The notes beneath the pieces were generated by a model, which was given only the letters and a program-made list of their open reading frames with translations, was not told the origin of the DNA and did not search any database. Shown piece after piece: positions 1 to 55,916 of a DNA stretch of 64,000 nucleotides. Both the position numbers and the translations under genes were made by a program. This DNA is from Brevibacillus agri (GTDB lineage Bacteria > Bacillota > Bacilli > Brevibacillales > Brevibacillaceae). Position 1 is the stretch's first letter. Each line of letters opens with the position of its first letter. The DNA is taken from assembly GCF_004117055.1 (NCBI RefSeq), contig NZ_CP026363.1, forward strand, positions 1,155,001 through 1,219,000, read 5' to 3'.

Positions 1-1495
<1,495 letters not shown>

Positions 1496-1550
1496 CACAT
1501 TTCTTAGCAAACATGCGTATTCAGTTTTGAAGGAACAAACCTTCCACATT

Positions 1551-1627
1551 GGAGCTGTGGTGAAGTTGGAGTTCACGCCGGTCTGTCACACCGGAGGTCG
1601 CGGGTTCGAGTCCCGTCAGCTCCGCCA
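1551..1627 (+). tRNA. tRNA-Asp (GTC)
   Basis: Cloverleaf with acceptor GGAGCTG/CAGCTCC, anticodon loop CTGTCAC (anticodon GTC), T-arm GGTTCGAGTCC and genome-encoded CCA. It follows the 23S gene after only about 55 bp, with no 5S gene between. Confidence 0.97.
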
Positions 1628-1669
1628 TTTCTATCTAAGAAAAAGTCAGAAATGGCAATGGAATAGCAT

Positions 1670-1745
<76 letters not shown>

Positions 1746-1750
1746 TGTAC

Positions 1751-1826
1751 GAGCCATTAGCTCAGTTGGTAGAGCATCTGACTTTTAATCAGAGGGTCGA
1801 AGGTTCGAGTCCTTCATGGCTCACCA
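1751..1826 (+). tRNA. tRNA-Lys (TTT)
   Basis: Acceptor GAGCCAT/ATGGCTC, anticodon loop CTTTTAA (TTT), encoded CCA. It starts 5 bp after tRNA-Phe. Confidence 0.97.
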
Positions 1827-1867
1827 GTTTTTACAAACAATTGAACAGGGAAAAGATGATACAATAT

Positions 1868-1943
1868 GCGGACGTAGCTCAATTGGTAGAGCGTCGCCTT
1901 GCCAAGGCGAAGGTCGCGGGTTCGAGACCCGTCGTCCGCTCCA
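1868..1943 (+). tRNA. tRNA-Gly (GCC)
   Basis: Acceptor GCGGACG/CGTCCGC, anticodon loop TTGCCAA (GCC), encoded CCA. Last tRNA of the cluster; a terminator follows. Confidence 0.97.
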
Positions 1944-1955
1944 TTACAGTTCGTA

Positions 1956-1990
1956 AACACCACTTGCTATGCGCCAGTGGTGTTTTCCTG
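1956..1990 (+). terminator. terminator of the rRNA-tRNA operon
   Basis: Perfect 9-bp stem AACACCACT/AGTGGTGTT followed by TTTTCC, 12 bp after tRNA-Gly. Confidence 0.85.
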
Positions 1991-2174
1991 CTTTTACAGA
2001 TTTTCCGAACGAGAAAGCCCGCTACGGTGCGATAGCACCCCCTAAGAAATTGCGTGAAGAGTTTCCACATCTTCGGCATTTGCCGAGTTTGTGGACACGC
2101 TCATACTTCGTTTCTACCGCAAGTGAAACGATAAAGCGATATGTCGAACAACAGAAAACAAGGGGGTGAAAATC

Positions 2175-3251
2175 ATGTCGCAGACCATCACAGTCAAAGT
2201 GAAATTGCTTCCAACAAAAGAACAGGCTTCTATTTTGCGTGAGATGAGTCAAACGTACCTCTCCACTATCAATACTCTCGTTTCCGAAATGGTTGCTGAA
2301 AAGAAAAGCACAAAGAAGTCGAGTAAGGATATTTCTGCTTCTTTGCCAAGTGCCGTTAAAAATCAAGCTATCAAGGACGCGAAAAGTGTGTTTAAGAAAG
2401 CGAAGAAAAGCAAATTCACTACTGTTCCTGTTTTGAAGAAACCTGTCTGCATTTGGAACAATCAAAACTATTCGTTTGATTTCACGCACATTTCCATGCC
2501 GATTATGATTGACGGCAAGGTAACTAAAACACCTATCCGTGCTTTGTTAGTTGATAAAGACAACCGTAACTTTGCTTTGCTAAAACACAAATTAGGTACG
2601 CTTCGAATCACACAGAAAGCAAATAAATGGATTGCCCAAATTTCTGTCACCATACCTACTATGGAAGGAACAGGAGTAAAAGTCATGGGGGTTGATTTGG
2701 GTTTAAAAGTTCCTGCCGTTGCTGTAACAGATGATGAAAAGGTACGTTTCTTTGGGAATGGCAGACAAAATAAGTACATGAAGCGTAAGTTCCGTTCTGA
2801 ACGCAAAGCATTAGGCAAAAAGAAAAAGGTAAATGCGATTCGTAGTTCAAAAGATAAAGAACAACGTTGGATGAAAGACCAAGACCATAAGGTTAGTCGT
2901 GCTATCGTAAATTTTGCAAAAGACAATAAAATTTCTGTCATTCGCTTGGAACAACTGGCGAATATTAGACAGACGGCAAGAACAAGCCGTAAAAACGAAA
3001 AGAATCTGCATACTTGGTCATTTTATCGCCTGTCTCAGTTCATTGAATATAAAGCGAATTTAGTTGGTATTAGAGTTGAGCATGTGAATCCTGCATACAC
3101 AAGTCAGACATGCCCTAAATGCTCTGAGAAGAATAAGGCACAAGACCGTAAGTATAAATGCAAATGTGGATTCGAAAAACATCGTGATTTAGTCGGTGCT
3201 ATGAACATTCGATATGCACCTGTGATTGATGGTAACAGTCAATCAGCCTAA
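2175..3251 (+). CDS. tnpB: RNA-guided endonuclease TnpB
   Basis: About 358 residues, normal TnpB length. The N-terminal half is the basic nucleic-acid-binding part (MSQTITVKVKLLPTKEQ onward). The RuvC-like nuclease follows, with its first Asp in MGVDLGLKVPAV, its Glu in VIRLEQLANI and its last Asp in HRDLVGAMNIRY; a four-Cys zinc ribbon (CPKC...CKCG) sits before the last Asp. All catalytic residues are present, so the protein is probably active. TnpB proteins cut DNA next to a short adjacent motif, guided by an RNA made from the element's right end. The ATG at 2175 is preferred over the in-frame GTG at 2166, which lies inside the ribosome-binding site AGGGGGTG. Confidence 0.93.
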   Translation: MSQTITVKVKLLPTKEQASILREMSQTYLSTINTLVSEMVAEKKSTKKSSKDISASLPSAVKNQAIKDAKSVFKKAKKSKFTTVPVLKKPVCIWNNQNYSFDFTHISMPIMIDGKVTKTPIRALLVDKDNRNFALLKHKLGTLRITQKANKWIAQISVTIPTMEGTGVKVMGVDLGLKVPAVAVTDDEKVRFFGNGRQNKYMKRKFRSERKALGKKKKVNAIRSSKDKEQRWMKDQDHKVSRAIVNFAKDNKISVIRLEQLANIRQTARTSRKNEKNLHTWSFYRLSQFIEYKANLVGIRVEHVNPAYTSQTCPKCSEKNKAQDRKYKCKCGFEKHRDLVGAMNIRYAPVIDGNSQSA

Positions 3252-3406
3252 GATGCTATATGCACTGTCTTAGGAGGGGCAATGAGATGCCCTCATCTTG
3301 AAGGCTGTTCAAAACAGAAATGGACTGCGAACGCTTAGTCATTCAAGAATCCCACCCGTACACCGCAAGGTGGAAGGCTTGCGGCTTTAGCCGTGGGAGT
3401 CTCAAC
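3252..3406 (+). ncRNA. right-end (omega/re) RNA of the tnpB element
   Basis: Directly downstream of tnpB lies a structured stretch with nested complementary blocks (GGGGCAATGAGATGCCC near 3276; CCCACCC...CCGTGGG at about 3351-3398). In this family that region forms the scaffold of the TnpB guide RNA, and the 5' part often overlaps the end of tnpB. The guide would be the flanking chromosomal sequence beginning at about 3407 (TGTAAAATACACAC). RNA ends are inferred, not seen. Confidence 0.6.
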
Positions 3407-3502
3407 TGTAAAATACACACTTTAAAAGACGAGTCAGCTTGTAGGCTGGCACCGCTTCTGGTACGATACTTGAAGTGCTGCTCCTATGATGTTGGAGGTT
3501 TT

Positions 3503-6171
<2,669 letters not shown>

Positions 6172-6251
6172 CGTGCTTGTAACATGAGTGAAATAATTCA
6201 AGGGTAAGATAAAGACAATGAATTGACCCCCTTATCTATATAAACATTGTT

Positions 6252-6285
6252 GCGTGGCTGGCATTTCAGTCGCGCATCTTTTTTT
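6252..6285 (+). terminator. terminator after trxB
   Basis: Imperfect hairpin GCGTGGCTGG/TCAGTCGCGC followed by ATCTTTTTTT. It separates trxB from the rapZ gene group. Confidence 0.65.
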
Positions 6286-6408
6286 GTCCAAAAACAGCTT
6301 GTTCGCGAGCGGAAACGAAAGCTGGGAAAAGTGGGGAAGCGCCCAAAAAGGTGCGAATAGGGGCGCGAGTATGGTATGCTATTGTCAGAATCGTAGGAGG
6401 CGAGTTGC

Positions 6409-7290
6409 GTGACGGAATTGGGAAACGACAAGGCCATTAATCTCCTGATTATTACCGGAATGTCAGGTGCGGGAAAAACAGTTGCTGTACAAAGCTTGGA
6501 GGACCTGGGTTATTTTTGCGTTGACAACCTGCCCCCAGTACTGATTCCCAAATTTGCCGAGTTGGTCAAACAGTCTGGCGGGAGTATTGAGCGTGTCGCT
6601 TTGGTGATCGACTTGCGTGGACGGGAGTTTTTCGAAAGTCTCTCCGTGACGATCGAGAGCCTGGATCAGATGGAGGGATTGTCGTATCACATCCTCTACC
6701 TCGATGCGAACGACCAAACGCTGGTTTCCCGTTACAAGGAAACTCGTCGCAGACATCCGCTTTCACCGAACGGTTCCCCTCTGGAAGGAATTCATGCTGA
6801 GCGCCGTCTGTTGCAGGAAATGAAGGGCTGGGCGCATCAGATTATCGATACGAGTCAAATGAAGCCAGCGCAGCTTCGGGAAAAAATCATCAACCAATAC
6901 GCACAACAAGGATCACCCCTTACGATCAATGTATTGTCGTTTGGCTTTAAATACGGTACGCCGATTGACGCGGACTTGATGTTTGATGTCCGGTTTTTGC
7001 CGAATCCGCATTATGTAGACGAGTTGCGGCCCAAGACCGGATGCGATCCAGAGGTGGCTGATTACGTGATGAAGCACAAGGAAACCAAAGAGTTCATCGA
7101 GAAGCTGACGGACTTTTTGGCGTACACCTTGCCTCATTACCAGCGCGAAGGCAAAAGCCAGCTTGTGATCGGAATCGGCTGTACGGGCGGAAAACACCGC
7201 TCGGTCGCGATTGCAGAGCATCTGGGCCAGACCTTCGGAAAAGATTTTACCATCCGCGTCAGTCATCGAGACATGGAAAAGAACAAGTGA
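6409..7290 (+). CDS. rapZ: RNase adapter / nucleotide-binding protein RapZ (YvcJ)
   Basis: 293 residues, full length. The Walker A motif GMSGAGKT lies at about 17-24, and the C-terminal half carries the family block [18 protein letters not shown]. In Gram-negative bacteria RapZ binds small RNAs and recruits RNase E; the Bacillus homologue YvcJ binds and hydrolyses nucleotides, with links to competence. The start is GTG with AGGAGG 8 bp upstream; a possible -10 TATGCT lies at 6375-6380. First gene of the conserved rapZ-yvcK-whiA-crh group. The Nudix gene yvcI, present here in B. subtilis, is absent. Confidence 0.95.
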
Positions 7291-51885: not shown

Positions 51886-52087
51886 TAGACATCCCCATCG
51901 CAAATTTGCATGGCTTTTGCTTCAATCTACAAGGTTTCGACAAGACCTTACATAATTCCTCCAAAATTTGGACATCGAGTTGGGATTATTTTGGAGGACA
52001 AAAGCTTCAAAAACCTAGTTGACAGATGGGTAAAACAAGGATTATAGTCTGTATATATTAATACAAACGTTGCGAAAATAAAAACTA

Positions 52088-52208
52088 CTCTTATCCAGAG
52101 AAGGCTGAGGGAATGGCCCTATGATGCCCGGCAACCTAGCTGGCAAGATCACCGTCTTGCGAGCCAAGGTGCTAACTCCAACAGGTAGCGATACCTGACA
52201 GATAAGAG
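52088..52208 (+). promoter_or_regulatory. SAM-I (S-box) riboswitch aptamer
   Basis: Conserved S-box blocks in order: CTCTTATC (P1), AGAGAAGGCTGAGGGA, GATGCCCGGCAACC, GGTGCTAACTCCAACAGG and GATAAGAG closing P1. The 3' P1 strand with GGC (52204-52210, AAGAGGC) can pair with the first arm of the terminator downstream (GCCTCTT at 52229-52235), the expected antiterminator. S-adenosylmethionine binding would favour termination, so the downstream transporter should be made when methionine/SAM is low. Confidence 0.95.
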
Positions 52209-52226
52209 GCGCGAATCTTGTCGATC

Positions 52227-52259
52227 AAGCCTCTTTCATCTGTTGAAAGAGGCTTTTCC
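52227..52259 (+). terminator. riboswitch-controlled terminator
   Basis: Perfect stem AAGCCTCTTTC/GAAAGAGGCTT followed by TTCC; expression platform of the S-box leader. Confidence 0.9.
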
Positions 52260-52325
52260 TATTGGAAGGTCGTCGCCTCCTCAGCTTGAAGCTCAGCAGG
52301 AAGAAAGAAAAAGGGGGATTTTTCG

Positions 52326-53348
52326 ATGAAAAAGAAACTGGGTCTTGTCACATCAATCGTACTGGCTGCGTCGCTGGCCTTGACCGCTTGCGGCGGGGGA
52401 GCGGACACCCAAAATCAGGCGGGAAGCGGCGCTTCCGGCGGCGAGAAGGCGAAGCGCATTGCCTTGATTATGCGCCAAAACGTCGGCACGTTTTCTGCCC
52501 AATACATTAACGGCGTGAAGCAGGAAGTCGAGAAAAACGGCGGCGAGCTGACCGTATTCAACGCAGATACCGATTTGTCGAAAATGGCCTCCAACCTCGA
52601 TGCTGCGGTGAACCAAAATTTTGACGGCATCCTGATTGACCACGGTACGGCGGAAGCGCTGCAGCAAGGCACGCAAAAAGCGGTCGACAAAAAGATCCCG
52701 GTTGTGCTGTTCGACACCGATATCAAGCTGCCGGGCGTCCCTGTCGTCGAGCAAGATGACAACAAGCTGGCCGAGTTGAGCCTGGAAAAGCTGGCTGCCG
52801 ATACGGGCGGCAAAGGCAACATCGTGAAAATTTGGGTAGCGGGCTTTGCGCCGATGGAAAAGCGCCAGGTAACGTATGAAGCATTCCTGAAAAAATACCC
52901 GGATATCAAGGAAATCGCCGCGTTTGGCTCGGCAACGAACAACACCGCGCTGGATACGCAAGCGCAGATGGAAGCGATTTTGAAAAAGTATCCGAACAAA
53001 GGCGACATTACAGCCGTATGGGCATCGTGGGATGAATTTGCCAAAGGGGCAACCCGTGCGATCCAGCAAGCAGGACGCACCGAGATCAAGGTGTACGGCA
53101 TCGACCTGAGCGACGAAGACTTGCAACTGATCCAGGAGCCAAACTCTCCTTGGGTCGCGACAGCAGCGGTAGATCCGTCGAATATCGGACGCATTCACGC
53201 GCAGACCGTTTTCCAAAAAATGAAAGGCGAGCAAGTGCCAGACAGCGTGAAGCTGAATCCGGTGCTGGTCAAACAGGAAGACTTGCCAAAGGATAAAAAA
53301 GTAACGATGGGCGATCTGTCCCAATACGTACAAGAGTGGGGCAAGTAA
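52326..53348 (+). CDS. ribose-type ABC substrate-binding lipoprotein under SAM control
   Basis: 340 residues. Lipobox ALTACGGG, short linker, then a type I sugar-binding fold of the RbsB group (KRIALIMRQNVGTFSAQYINGVKQEVEKNGGELTVFNAD; LIDHGTAEALQQGTQKAVDKKIPVVLFDTD). The ligand is unknown; the S-box leader points to a sulfur compound of methionine metabolism, such as methylthioribose, instead of ordinary ribose (inference). AAGGGGG precedes the ATG. First gene of a three-gene transporter operon. Confidence 0.9.
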   Translation: MKKKLGLVTSIVLAASLALTACGGGADTQNQAGSGASGGEKAKRIALIMRQNVGTFSAQYINGVKQEVEKNGGELTVFNADTDLSKMASNLDAAVNQNFDGILIDHGTAEALQQGTQKAVDKKIPVVLFDTDIKLPGVPVVEQDDNKLAELSLEKLAADTGGKGNIVKIWVAGFAPMEKRQVTYEAFLKKYPDIKEIAAFGSATNNTALDTQAQMEAILKKYPNKGDITAVWASWDEFAKGATRAIQQAGRTEIKVYGIDLSDEDLQLIQEPNSPWVATAAVDPSNIGRIHAQTVFQKMKGEQVPDSVKLNPVLVKQEDLPKDKKVTMGDLSQYVQEWGK

Positions 53349-53373
53349 GCAAATAGAGCTGGTTGGTTTGGCT

Positions 53374-53408
53374 ATTCCCGTTGCTTTTGTCAACGGGAAT
53401 CTTGTTTA
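53374..53408 (+). terminator. partial terminator within the transporter operon
   Basis: Stem ATTCCCGTTG/CAACGGGAAT with the weak tail CTTGTTTATTT between the binding-protein and ATPase genes. It may give more binding protein than transporter, as is common. Confidence 0.6.
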
Positions 53409-53425
53409 TTTAGGGGGTGCGAAAA

Positions 53426-54916
53426 GTGTCCAGCTTGCAGATGAAAGGGATTGTGAAGCAGTTTTCCGGCGTGCCTGCGTTGCGCTCCGTCGATTTTGAA
53501 GTCAAGGCTGGCGAGGTGCACGCGCTGCTCGGAGCGAACGGAGCGGGAAAAAGCACGCTGATGAAAATTCTTACAGGCGCGTATCAGCCGGATGGCGGCA
53601 GCATCGCGATTGACGGCAAGGACGTCTCGATCCAATCGCCGCAGGATGCGAAAGCGTTGGGCATCCAGTGCGTCTACCAGGAAGTCGATACGGCGCTGAT
53701 CCCGTATTTGAGCGTGACGGAAAACATTTTGCTCGACCAGATCGTGTCCAAAAGCAGCAAGGGACTCATGAACTGGCAAGGGCTGCACAAGGAAGCGGAG
53801 AGCATTTTGCAAAGCTTCGGCTTTTCCATCCCTGTGCGCATGCTCGTCGAGGAATGTACGCTGTCCGAAAAGCAACTGATCTTGATTGCCCGCGCGACCG
53901 TGCAAAAAGCGAAGTACGTCATTTTTGACGAACCGACAGCCCCGTTGAGCACGAAGGAGAGCGAGCGGCTGTTTCTCATTATCGACCAGTTGAAAAAAGC
54001 AGGCGTCGGGATCATCTACATTTCCCATCGGCTGCCGGAAATTTTCGAAATCTGCGACCGGATCACGGTCATGCGCGACGGTCAACTGATTGCCACGAGC
54101 GAGACGGCCGCTACTACGATGGATGAAGTCATCGGGAACATGCTGGGCAAAAGCTTCGAGGAAGAGTTCCCGAAAGTGGAGCTGCCGATTGGCGAAGTGA
54201 TCCTGGAAGCGGCCGGAGTGGCTGGCGGCAAGGTGCGCGGTGCGGATGTGAGCGTTCGCGAGGGCGAGATCGTAGGCGTCGTAGGACTTGTCGGGGCAGG
54301 GAAGACGGAGCTGGCCCGGCTGCTGTTCGGAGCGGATGCGGCCGAAGCTGGCGAGATCAGGCTGAAAGGCAAGGCGGTACGCCTGCGCTCGCCAAAGGAA
54401 GCCGTGGATGCAGGGATCGTCCTCGTCCCGGAGGAGCGGCGAAAAGAAGGCATTTTTGTCGAGGAGTCGGTGAAAAACAATTTGTCTGTCTCGACTTTGT
54501 GGAAATGGTCGCGCCTCGGGTTTGTCCGCAGGGGAGTCGAGGCGGGGCAAGCGCGGGAGCTGGTGCAGCGGCTGGGTGTGAAGACAGCGGACATCGGCCA
54601 GTTCGTCGGCCACCTCAGCGGGGGGAACCAGCAAAAGGTCGCAATCGGCAAATGGCTTGATACGGATGCGCAAATTTTCATGTTTGACGAACCGACCAAA
54701 GGCGTGGACATCGGCGCGAAAAGCGATATTTACCGCCTGATCGGAAAGCTGGCGGAGCAGCGCAAGGGCGTTTTGTACTTTTCCTGCGAGTTTGCGGAGG
54801 TGCTGGGCATCGCGGACCGGATTCTGGTCATGTTCGAAGGGAAAATCGTCCGGGAGCTGAGCCGGGCGGAAGCGACGCAGGAGCGGATTATGTATTATGC
54901 AAGCGGAGGTGAGTAA
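53426..54916 (+). CDS. ribose-type ABC ATPase (two nucleotide-binding domains)
   Basis: 496 residues with two tandem ABC domains, as in RbsA/MglA. Domain 1 has Walker A GANGAGKST and Walker B YVIFDEPTAPL; its signature is changed to CTLSEKQLI, lacking the usual LSGG. Domain 2 has a degenerate Walker A (GLVGAGKTE), signature HLSGGNQQKVAIG and Walker B IFMFDEPTKGVD. The GTG at 53426 is the likely start (GGGGG 8 bp upstream); GTG 53417 lies within that site. It pairs with the single permease gene downstream. Confidence 0.9.
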   Translation: MSSLQMKGIVKQFSGVPALRSVDFEVKAGEVHALLGANGAGKSTLMKILTGAYQPDGGSIAIDGKDVSIQSPQDAKALGIQCVYQEVDTALIPYLSVTENILLDQIVSKSSKGLMNWQGLHKEAESILQSFGFSIPVRMLVEECTLSEKQLILIARATVQKAKYVIFDEPTAPLSTKESERLFLIIDQLKKAGVGIIYISHRLPEIFEICDRITVMRDGQLIATSETAATTMDEVIGNMLGKSFEEEFPKVELPIGEVILEAAGVAGGKVRGADVSVREGEIVGVVGLVGAGKTELARLLFGADAAEAGEIRLKGKAVRLRSPKEAVDAGIVLVPEERRKEGIFVEESVKNNLSVSTLWKWSRLGFVRRGVEAGQARELVQRLGVKTADIGQFVGHLSGGNQQKVAIGKWLDTDAQIFMFDEPTKGVDIGAKSDIYRLIGKLAEQRKGVLYFSCEFAEVLGIADRILVMFEGKIVRELSRAEATQERIMYYASGGE

Positions 54917-54917
54917 C

Positions 54918-55916
54918 GTGGAAGGTAAAAAATTCAGCCTGTTTGATTTTATTTACAAATACGGAACGGTTGCGGTTATTGTTATCGTTATGCTGTTATT
55001 CAGTTTGACCAACCCGTATTTTTTTACGTATGACAACATTACGGACATTTTGCGCTCGATCTCGATCGTGACGTTTGTCGCCATCGGCGTTACGTTTTCC
55101 TTGATTGTCGGGGGCTTTGACCTGTCTGTCGGTTCGACGGTGTCGCTGACTACCGTCGTCTCGGCCTCGATGATGGTCTGGTACGAGCAGGGCGTGTTCG
55201 CCACACTGGTCGTTCCGATTGCGCTCAGCCTGATCGTCGGGCTGGTCAACGCGTTTCTGGTCGTCAAAATCCGGATTCCCGACCTGCTGGCGACGCTCGC
55301 GATGCTCTACATCGTCAACGGGCTGCACATGACGTATTCCAAAGGCTACTCGATCTACGCCAACATGCCGATGGAAGACGGTTCGATGGCTCCGGGGAAA
55401 TTCCAGGAGTGGTTTTTGTGGCTTGGCCAAGGCAAAATTTTCTCGCTGCCTGTGCCAGTTATCCTGACCTTTTTGCTGGTCGCGGTCACGCACATCTACC
55501 TGACCTACACCAGACAAGGACGGATGCTGTACATGACGGGCGGCAATCTGGAAGCCGCGCGCTTGTCAGGCATTCCGGTCAATCGCTACCGCACGCTCGC
55601 CTACGTGTTATCCGCGCTGTTTGCCGGCTTGGGCGGGATGCTCTTGGCGGCGCGGATCGGGACAGGCCAGGTGAGCAGCGGCGGCTCGATGCTGATGGAT
55701 GCAGTGGCAGCGGCGTTTGTCGGCTTCTCTGTATTCGGCGCGGGCAAGCCGAATGTGTTCGGGACGTTCGTCGGCGCAATCCTGATCGGGGTGCTGCTCA
55801 ACGGCATGACGATGCTCAACCTGCCGTACTACGCCTACGATATTATCAAAGGGACGGTATTGGCGCTGGCGTTGGCTGTGACGTATTACCAGCTTCGGCG
55901 GAAAAGAAAAGCGTAG
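54918..55916 (+). CDS. ribose-type ABC permease
   Basis: About 332 residues, eight to ten membrane helices of the RbsC/BPD_transp_2 family (IGVTFSLIVGGFDLSVGSTVSLTTV; TRQGRMLYMTGGNLEAARLSGIPVNRYRTLAYVLSALFAGLGGMLLAAR; GAGKPNVFGTFVGAILIGVLLNGM). The GTG at 54918 directly follows the ATPase stop and has GGAGGTGA inside the ATPase end; an ATG at 54897 would overlap the ATPase gene. Last gene of the S-box operon. Confidence 0.9.
   Translation: MEGKKFSLFDFIYKYGTVAVIVIVMLLFSLTNPYFFTYDNITDILRSISIVTFVAIGVTFSLIVGGFDLSVGSTVSLTTVVSASMMVWYEQGVFATLVVPIALSLIVGLVNAFLVVKIRIPDLLATLAMLYIVNGLHMTYSKGYSIYANMPMEDGSMAPGKFQEWFLWLGQGKIFSLPVPVILTFLLVAVTHIYLTYTRQGRMLYMTGGNLEAARLSGIPVNRYRTLAYVLSALFAGLGGMLLAARIGTGQVSSGGSMLMDAVAAAFVGFSVFGAGKPNVFGTFVGAILIGVLLNGMTMLNLPYYAYDIIKGTVLALALAVTYYQLRRKRKA

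Follow-up and report, generated by a model that had tools for sequence, protein, structure and literature searches.

In a 64,000-nucleotide stretch of the Brevibacillus agri genome (NZ_CP026363.1, positions 1,155,001 to 1,219,000 of the forward strand; hereafter the window, numbered from its first nucleotide), we analyzed a locus at 52088-55916 in which an S-box leader precedes the genes of a ribose-type ATP-binding cassette (ABC) transporter. This locus very probably encodes an S-box-controlled ABC importer of 5-methylthioribose (MTR), of the MtrABC type. The assignment draws on the predicted architecture of the leader, the gene content, the kinship of the solute-binding protein (SBP), co-occurrence across genomes, and gene linkage; from these we infer that the leader binds S-adenosylmethionine (SAM), that SAM turns expression off, as in other SAM-I switches, and that MTR is the physiological cargo. 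A generic 'ribose transporter' would accordingly be read as a specific sulfur-salvage importer. The locus consists of the following features, all on the + strand:

52019-52048, +: promoter-like sequence TTGACA-18-TATAGT (consensus scan, 11/12 matches; 0.7 expected by chance)
52088-52208, +: SAM-I (S-box) riboswitch aptamer (Rfam RF00162, 80.4 bits, E 2.5e-17)
52198-52243, +: predicted antiterminator, the terminator 5' arm paired with the P1 3' strand (minimum free energy fold of 52196-52243, -17.4 kcal/mol)
52227-52255, +: predicted intrinsic terminator stem-loop of 12 pairs with a loop of 5 and a T-rich tail (fold and scan)
52326-53348, +: solute-binding lipoprotein, MtrB-like, CUT2, 340 aa (Peripla_BP_4, PF13407, over cut-off)
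53374-53400, +: perfect 10-pair hairpin between the SBP and ATPase genes (read from the sequence)
53417-54916, +: two-domain ABC ATPase, MtrA-like, CUT2, 499 aa (ABC_tran over cut-off in 2 stretches)
54897-55916, +: permease, MtrC-like, 339 aa (BPD_transp_2, PF02653, over cut-off)

A preliminary description of the locus had proposed an S-box aptamer followed by a terminator that competes with the P1 strand, and both elements stood up. The RF00162 match spans the full model (positions 1-108 of 108) and exceeds the gathering score of 44.4 bits. The whole leader is predicted to fold into the aptamer with P1 plus the terminator hairpin (-67.0 kcal/mol); when the RNA is cut at the terminator 5' arm, the P1 3' strand (from 52198) instead pairs with the arm (to 52243). 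The consensus scan alone is weak evidence for a terminator, as it returned one terminator-like site against 0.6 expected in shuffled sequences. Across the family, we also matched an S-box at 32 of the 38 orthologous loci (18/20, 10/10, and 4/8). Our script called a terminator in 31 of these 32 leaders, including a weak 7-pair call at locus L035, and found complementarity of at least 5 bases between P1 and the arm in 28. Two of the family loci without a match, L022 and L026, have less than 150 bases of upstream sequence each, and the others are L059-L062. At L059 the transporter genes come directly after a gene for an MtnK-type kinase, and at L061 and L062 directly after mtnK and mtnA; L060 is the second of two transporter copies in its genome, the other of which (L057) does have an S-box. 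The predicted architecture is that of the usual S-box off-switch. By analogy, when SAM is scarce the antiterminator would form and the mtrB-mtrA-mtrC operon would be transcribed; when SAM is plentiful it would stabilize P1, allowing the terminator to form and transcription to stop. As a separate observation, tandem S-box pairs lie directly upstream of the transporter at L088 (3074-3383), L130 (7614-7906), L184 (8203-8512), L195 (5276-5568), and L196 (6909-7203); the first two are from Aneurinibacillus, and the last three come partly from the same genomes.

The SBP, ATPase, and permease genes lie in one run (52326-55916) and together make up a complete CUT2 (ribose-type) ABC importer, bearing out, by their open reading frames (ORFs) and Pfam domains, the earlier claim of a full RbsB-RbsA-RbsC-type set. 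The SBP, whose closest named match is from Brevibacillus gelatini (99%), has Cys22 at a lipobox-like site, and this residue is invariant in the 16 rows of our alignment. The start of the permease is uncertain, as an in-frame GTG at 54909 matches the start in the relative L065. The hairpin at 53374-53400 perhaps sets the ratio of SBP to ATPase expression.

Since RbsB, RbsA, and RbsC are among the closest NCBIfam names, the locus could in principle be an ordinary ribose importer that acquired its S-box by chance. However, all three proteins score well short of the ribose equivalog cut-offs (63.2 of 337 bits for RbsB, 483.5 of 745 for RbsA, and 182.6 of 398 for the permease), although these models may be narrow. 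The ribokinase of this genome lies elsewhere with no transporter gene recognized beside it; the operon itself contains no ribokinase, and rbsD was not recognized among its ORFs, though no rbsD search was made. The LsrACDB autoinducer-2 importer was also considered and rejected (LsrB 20.3 of 384 bits, missing the cut-off). Comparison with the ribose binder 2ioy, at positions chosen from what we take to be the RbsB contact list, showed that three aligned pocket residues differ in the window SBP (R to T131, N to W235, and Q to V282). The resemblance to RbsABC lies in the shared CUT2 architecture, while the ribose cut-offs are unreached and the aligned pocket positions are different, and we consider an ordinary ribose importer highly improbable.

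By both sequence and fold, the best solved relatives of the window SBP are 5ulb (37% identity) and 4ry8 (36% identity). The closest, 5ulb, is the SBP of a Yersinia enterocolitica sugar ABC transporter, and its title names no ligand. The title of 4ry8 is that of the 5-methylthioribose transporter solute binding protein TLET_1677 of Thermotoga lettingae. A model of the window SBP built from the 16-row alignment had a mean predicted local distance difference test score (pLDDT) of 88.9 and a template modeling (TM) score to 4ry8 of 0.82-0.84 by query length; a prediction from the single sequence had a pLDDT of 49 and was not used. Despite the low identity, 4ry8 shares with the window SBP both the fold and the residues D130, R180, W235, and D260. 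The pocket comparison called for in the preliminary description yielded three differences from the ribose binder and four residues in common with 4ry8, and its reach is limited at one position: W235 was tried as a marker of MTR binding and is not diagnostic, as 4wt7 and 3l49 also have W there. In a 42-row tree, a branch with support of 96/94 separated the window SBP, 36 chosen relatives, 4ry8, and 5ulb from 3l49, 4wt7, and 2ioy; the tree program flagged the branches of 4ry8 and 2ioy as long. Within this tree 5ulb groups with the mtnA/mtnK-linked proteins of L061, L062, and L228-L231.

The preliminary description had also suggested looking for co-occurrence with mtnK. We searched 398 genomes of the class for the SBP (E 1e-60 or better) and for the MTR kinase MtnK (1e-30 or better). 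The SBP was found in 135 genomes and MtnK in 194, with both present in 134, the kinase only in 60, and neither in 203. MtnK therefore accompanies 134/135 SBP-positive genomes versus 60/263 SBP-negative genomes, a contrast whose Fisher test ignores the relatedness of the genomes. The sole SBP-positive genome without an MtnK match is represented by a 5.9 kb contig (L176), on which genes resembling mtnB and mtnD adjoin the transporter. That the transporter family tracks the MTR kinase so closely makes the long-standing prediction of an MTR transporter directly testable.

Gene linkage points the same way. Outside the family, 101 genomes are SBP-positive, and from these we fetched 60 loci by going down the list; the 41 skipped genomes are mostly from large genera (g48 15, g33 11, g23 9, others 6). 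The fetched stretch contained mtn genes at 47 of the 60 loci. An S-box lies directly before the transporter at 15 of them, heads an mtn-transporter operon at 26 (27 with L198), and is absent from both places at 19 (18). In total, 41/60 loci carry an S-box in one of these two positions, or 42 once L198 is counted, where overlapping ORF calls made the script overlook an operon-head S-box that was recognized by eye. In Cytobacillus gottheilii (L132) and Psychrobacillus (L142) the order behind the S-box is mtnK-mtnA-SBP-ATPase-permease, and an Aneurinibacillus locus (L135) has the order mtnWXBD-SBP-ATPase-permease-mtnE. Three loci from genomes of family f4 (L209-L211) have the transporter followed by mtnK without any S-box. 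At another six fetched loci (L213-L218) both the S-box and mtn genes are missing from the stretch, and MtnK is found elsewhere in each of these genomes. By coordinates, MtnK lies within 5 kb of the SBP in 17 of the 41 unfetched genomes, its place not being listed for 13.

The earlier proposal of a sulfur-containing pentose or nucleoside named MTR and methylthioadenosine (MTA) alike. Import of MTA or another nucleoside would suit the S-box, as MTA is the precursor of MTR. However, the co-occurring kinase acts on free MTR, the relative named for its ligand (4ry8) is by its title an MTR binder, and the genome has a separate S-box-led system of the BMP type, a family with known nucleoside binders. 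On the title of 4ry8, the near-perfect co-occurrence with MtnK, and the frequent shared operons with mtnK-mtnA, the choice of MTR over MTA appears strongly supported; the MTR half of the proposal has held and the MTA half has lost ground, and we give a nucleoside cargo for this importer very little credence.

The same pathway is present in B. agri itself. Its 5.37 Mb genome has 14 S-box matches, two of which (L050 and L051) seem to be a single region present at both ends of the contig. One S-box precedes mtnK and mtnA, and a divergent one precedes mtnW, mtnX, mtnB, and the gene of a 170 aa protein that we take to be MtnD, which had no NCBIfam family match at 1e-15. MtnK, MtnA, and MtnB pass their curated NCBIfam cut-offs, and MtnW and MtnX exceed the cut-off of one model out of two in each case. 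These sets lie ~210 kb from the window locus, and no mtn gene was seen among the genes looked at around the locus, in line with the initial statement that none adjoins it. A further S-box-led gene (L052) encodes a transaminase, presumably MtnE, that scores above the cut-off of the NCBIfam transaminase subfamily PRK08068; the S-box-led gene in L054 is presumably metK. In the proposed mechanism, the lipoprotein would bind extracellular MTR, the permease and ATPase would import it, and the S-box-led MtnK, MtnA, MtnB, MtnW, MtnX, MtnD-like, and MtnE-like proteins encoded elsewhere would turn it into methionine, so that the sulfur of the imported MTR would be recycled.

Several observations weigh against MTR as the specific cargo. 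The ligand bound in the 4ry8 structure is one that we presume, at only 36% identity to the window SBP, and our searches gave neither binding nor uptake measurements for the clade of this SBP. In at least 11 of the 41 unfetched genomes, all from g33, MtnK lies on another contig or more than 1 Mb away. Among the 80 named loci nearest to the window locus, 54 lack an S-box, and 52 of these 54 also lack an mtn gene in the locus. Two more such points concern the B. agri genome: only one ribokinase passes its cut-off, at 1,796,835 and far from the locus, and no other RbsB-type SBP was recognized among the nine PF13407 matches, not all of which were examined. These nine include the window SBP, the BMP protein of locus L049, and ORFs of L263 and L264, the last two being presumably LacI-type regulators. 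On these two points, ribose could be a second cargo of the importer.

The ribokinase and PF13407 results would also suit an importer that takes several 5-modified or plain pentoses (5-deoxyribose, MTR, ribose), its S-box linking it to SAM by-products in general. The 5 position is the only point of difference between 5-deoxyribose and MTR. At L059 (465-6429), with its MtnK-type kinase gene immediately ahead of the transporter, there is no mtnA hit in 8 kb, and the gene downstream of the transporter presumably encodes a 2-hydroxyacid dehydrogenase; L059 is possibly a variant pentose route. The genome of L059 has two MtnK matches. Against a several-pentose importer stands the repeated linkage of the transporter to mtnK-mtnA and mtnWXBD, and we regard such an importer as unlikely, though less so than either ribose or a nucleoside as the cargo.

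We next consider the loci without an S-box. Calls at the 80 nearest named loci were made with our own S-box model at E up to 0.1, and these loci overlap in species with the 398-genome set and are not independent of it. The 54 loci without a match comprise 49 from Paenibacillus, 2 Brevibacillus contigs cut just upstream, 1 from Gordonibacillus, and 2 from metagenome assemblies. By the preliminary description, an S-box missing from most orthologues would speak against its reading, and this was borne out in part: the element is missing from most of the nearest named loci and present at most loci in the family. We examined four transporter-bearing Paenibacillus genomes (RC67, H1-7, baekrokdamisoli, and silviterrae). 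MtnK passes its cut-off in 4/4, and these genomes have 2, 2, 1, and 3 S-boxes, respectively, the closest lying ~100 kb or more from MtnK. Five f4 genomes have 2-3 S-boxes each, the closest ~48 kb or more from MtnK; f4 is called Paenibacillus-like on SBP best matches alone (the SBPs of L209-L211 and L213-L218 have best named matches in Paenibacillus at 62-68% identity). No S-box was found within 45 kb of mtnK in these four Paenibacillus and five f4 genomes. Because mtnK, too, lacks an S-box there, the absence suggests that control differs across the whole pathway, and not that the cargo is another one. S-box control reads as a lineage trait, present in Brevibacillus, Aneurinibacillus, and several Bacillaceae and absent from the Paenibacillus loci and genomes checked, and the tie to mtnK is not bound to lineage. 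A search for other Rfam regulatory elements at the S-box-less loci L080, L094, L105, L209, L211, L213, L214, and L218 gave none, the only match being a group II intron in L218. No conserved neighbor was found for the 54 loci, the widest ORF family reaching 18/54 with transporter genes and antisense or overlapping ORFs set aside. The genome from which L109 comes has an additional MTR-kinase match (G404:C4:2292-3466) that is split in two, one part containing a stop, and that is perhaps a decayed extra copy of MtnK.

The preliminary description overrated the novelty of the assignment. The first identification of mtrACB in B. cereus is reportedly that of Rodionov et al. 2004. A probable MTR ABC transporter, mtrACB, similar to sugar transporters and first identified in Bacillus cereus, is already in print (PMC3228920); the paper notes an S-box in B. 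cereus, metboxes in gammaproteobacteria, and no functional characterization at that time. The window locus shares with it the sugar-type three-gene ABC importer, the co-occurrence with mtn genes, and, with B. cereus, the S-box; it differs in that the Brevibacillus locus is unlinked from the mtn genes and the gammaproteobacterial mtrACB has metboxes. The locus adds a new and well-supported member to a kind of transporter that had been predicted before in other bacteria and is still mostly known from prediction. The B. subtilis protein YfnA, which we take to be a single amino-acid-permease-type protein and not an ABC transporter, appears to have MTR influx in common with the proposed importer and to be a different kind of protein. 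PMC5743806 renames YfnA as MtrA and reports its MTR influx as experimentally authenticated. Methylthioribose uptake and salvage genes are listed among genome-specific members of MetJ regulons (PMC4239095), and mtrB is annotated (PMC7843439). Judged by titles and the starts of abstracts, our searches returned no paper testing this transporter in Bacillota; the single paper found for methylthioribose and Brevibacillus dealt with biocatalysis for drug synthesis, and all that the accessible parts of PMC2211319, PMC4958253, and PMC6302742 offer on the transporter is a reference to the supplement of Borriss et al. 2018.

The separate BMP-type system lies in L049 at 717-7090 (~882,216-888,590 in the B. 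agri genome), where an S-box is followed by a BMP-type SBP, an ATPase, and two permeases. One gene past the permeases is a nucleoside-phosphorylase-like gene (157.6 of 280.3 bits with the uridine phosphorylase model). By our own S-box model the element was matched in 28/30 of the best orthologous loci, the two without a match being L251, with a contig of ~160 bases upstream, and L258. This system could be a SAM-controlled nucleoside importer. We tentatively propose that Brevibacillus might scavenge its neighbors' SAM by-products through two S-box tiers, the MTR importer and the L049 system, the latter importing and cleaving MTA, 5'-deoxyadenosine, or a related nucleoside. We consider this idea doubtful because the closest NCBIfam names of the L049 SBP and ATPase belong to a putative vitamin B6 transporter, although both scores fall far short of the cut-offs (SBP 74/400 and ATPase 429/670 bits), making vitamin B6 a candidate competing cargo by sequence. 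A narrow literature search gave no paper on this second system. L049 also contains an ORF that looks to us like a sulfite-oxidase-type protein.

Other S-boxes and SAM-related genes of the B. agri genome were noted in passing. Two tandem S-boxes at 2,460,349-2,460,709 (L002, L003, and L046) lie upstream of a gene that presumably encodes homoserine dehydrogenase. At L263 (2337-3296), an MTA/S-adenosylhomocysteine nucleosidase (TIGR01704, 198 bits) has an extra C-terminal stretch, which we take to be glutaredoxin-like, and follows a regulator gene of presumed LacI type that seems to resemble ccpA. Finally, L050 and L051 (30-37 kb and 5.360-5.368 Mb) have the same gene starts and an equal-score S-box near both contig ends, a duplication that is probably the overlap of a circular assembly.

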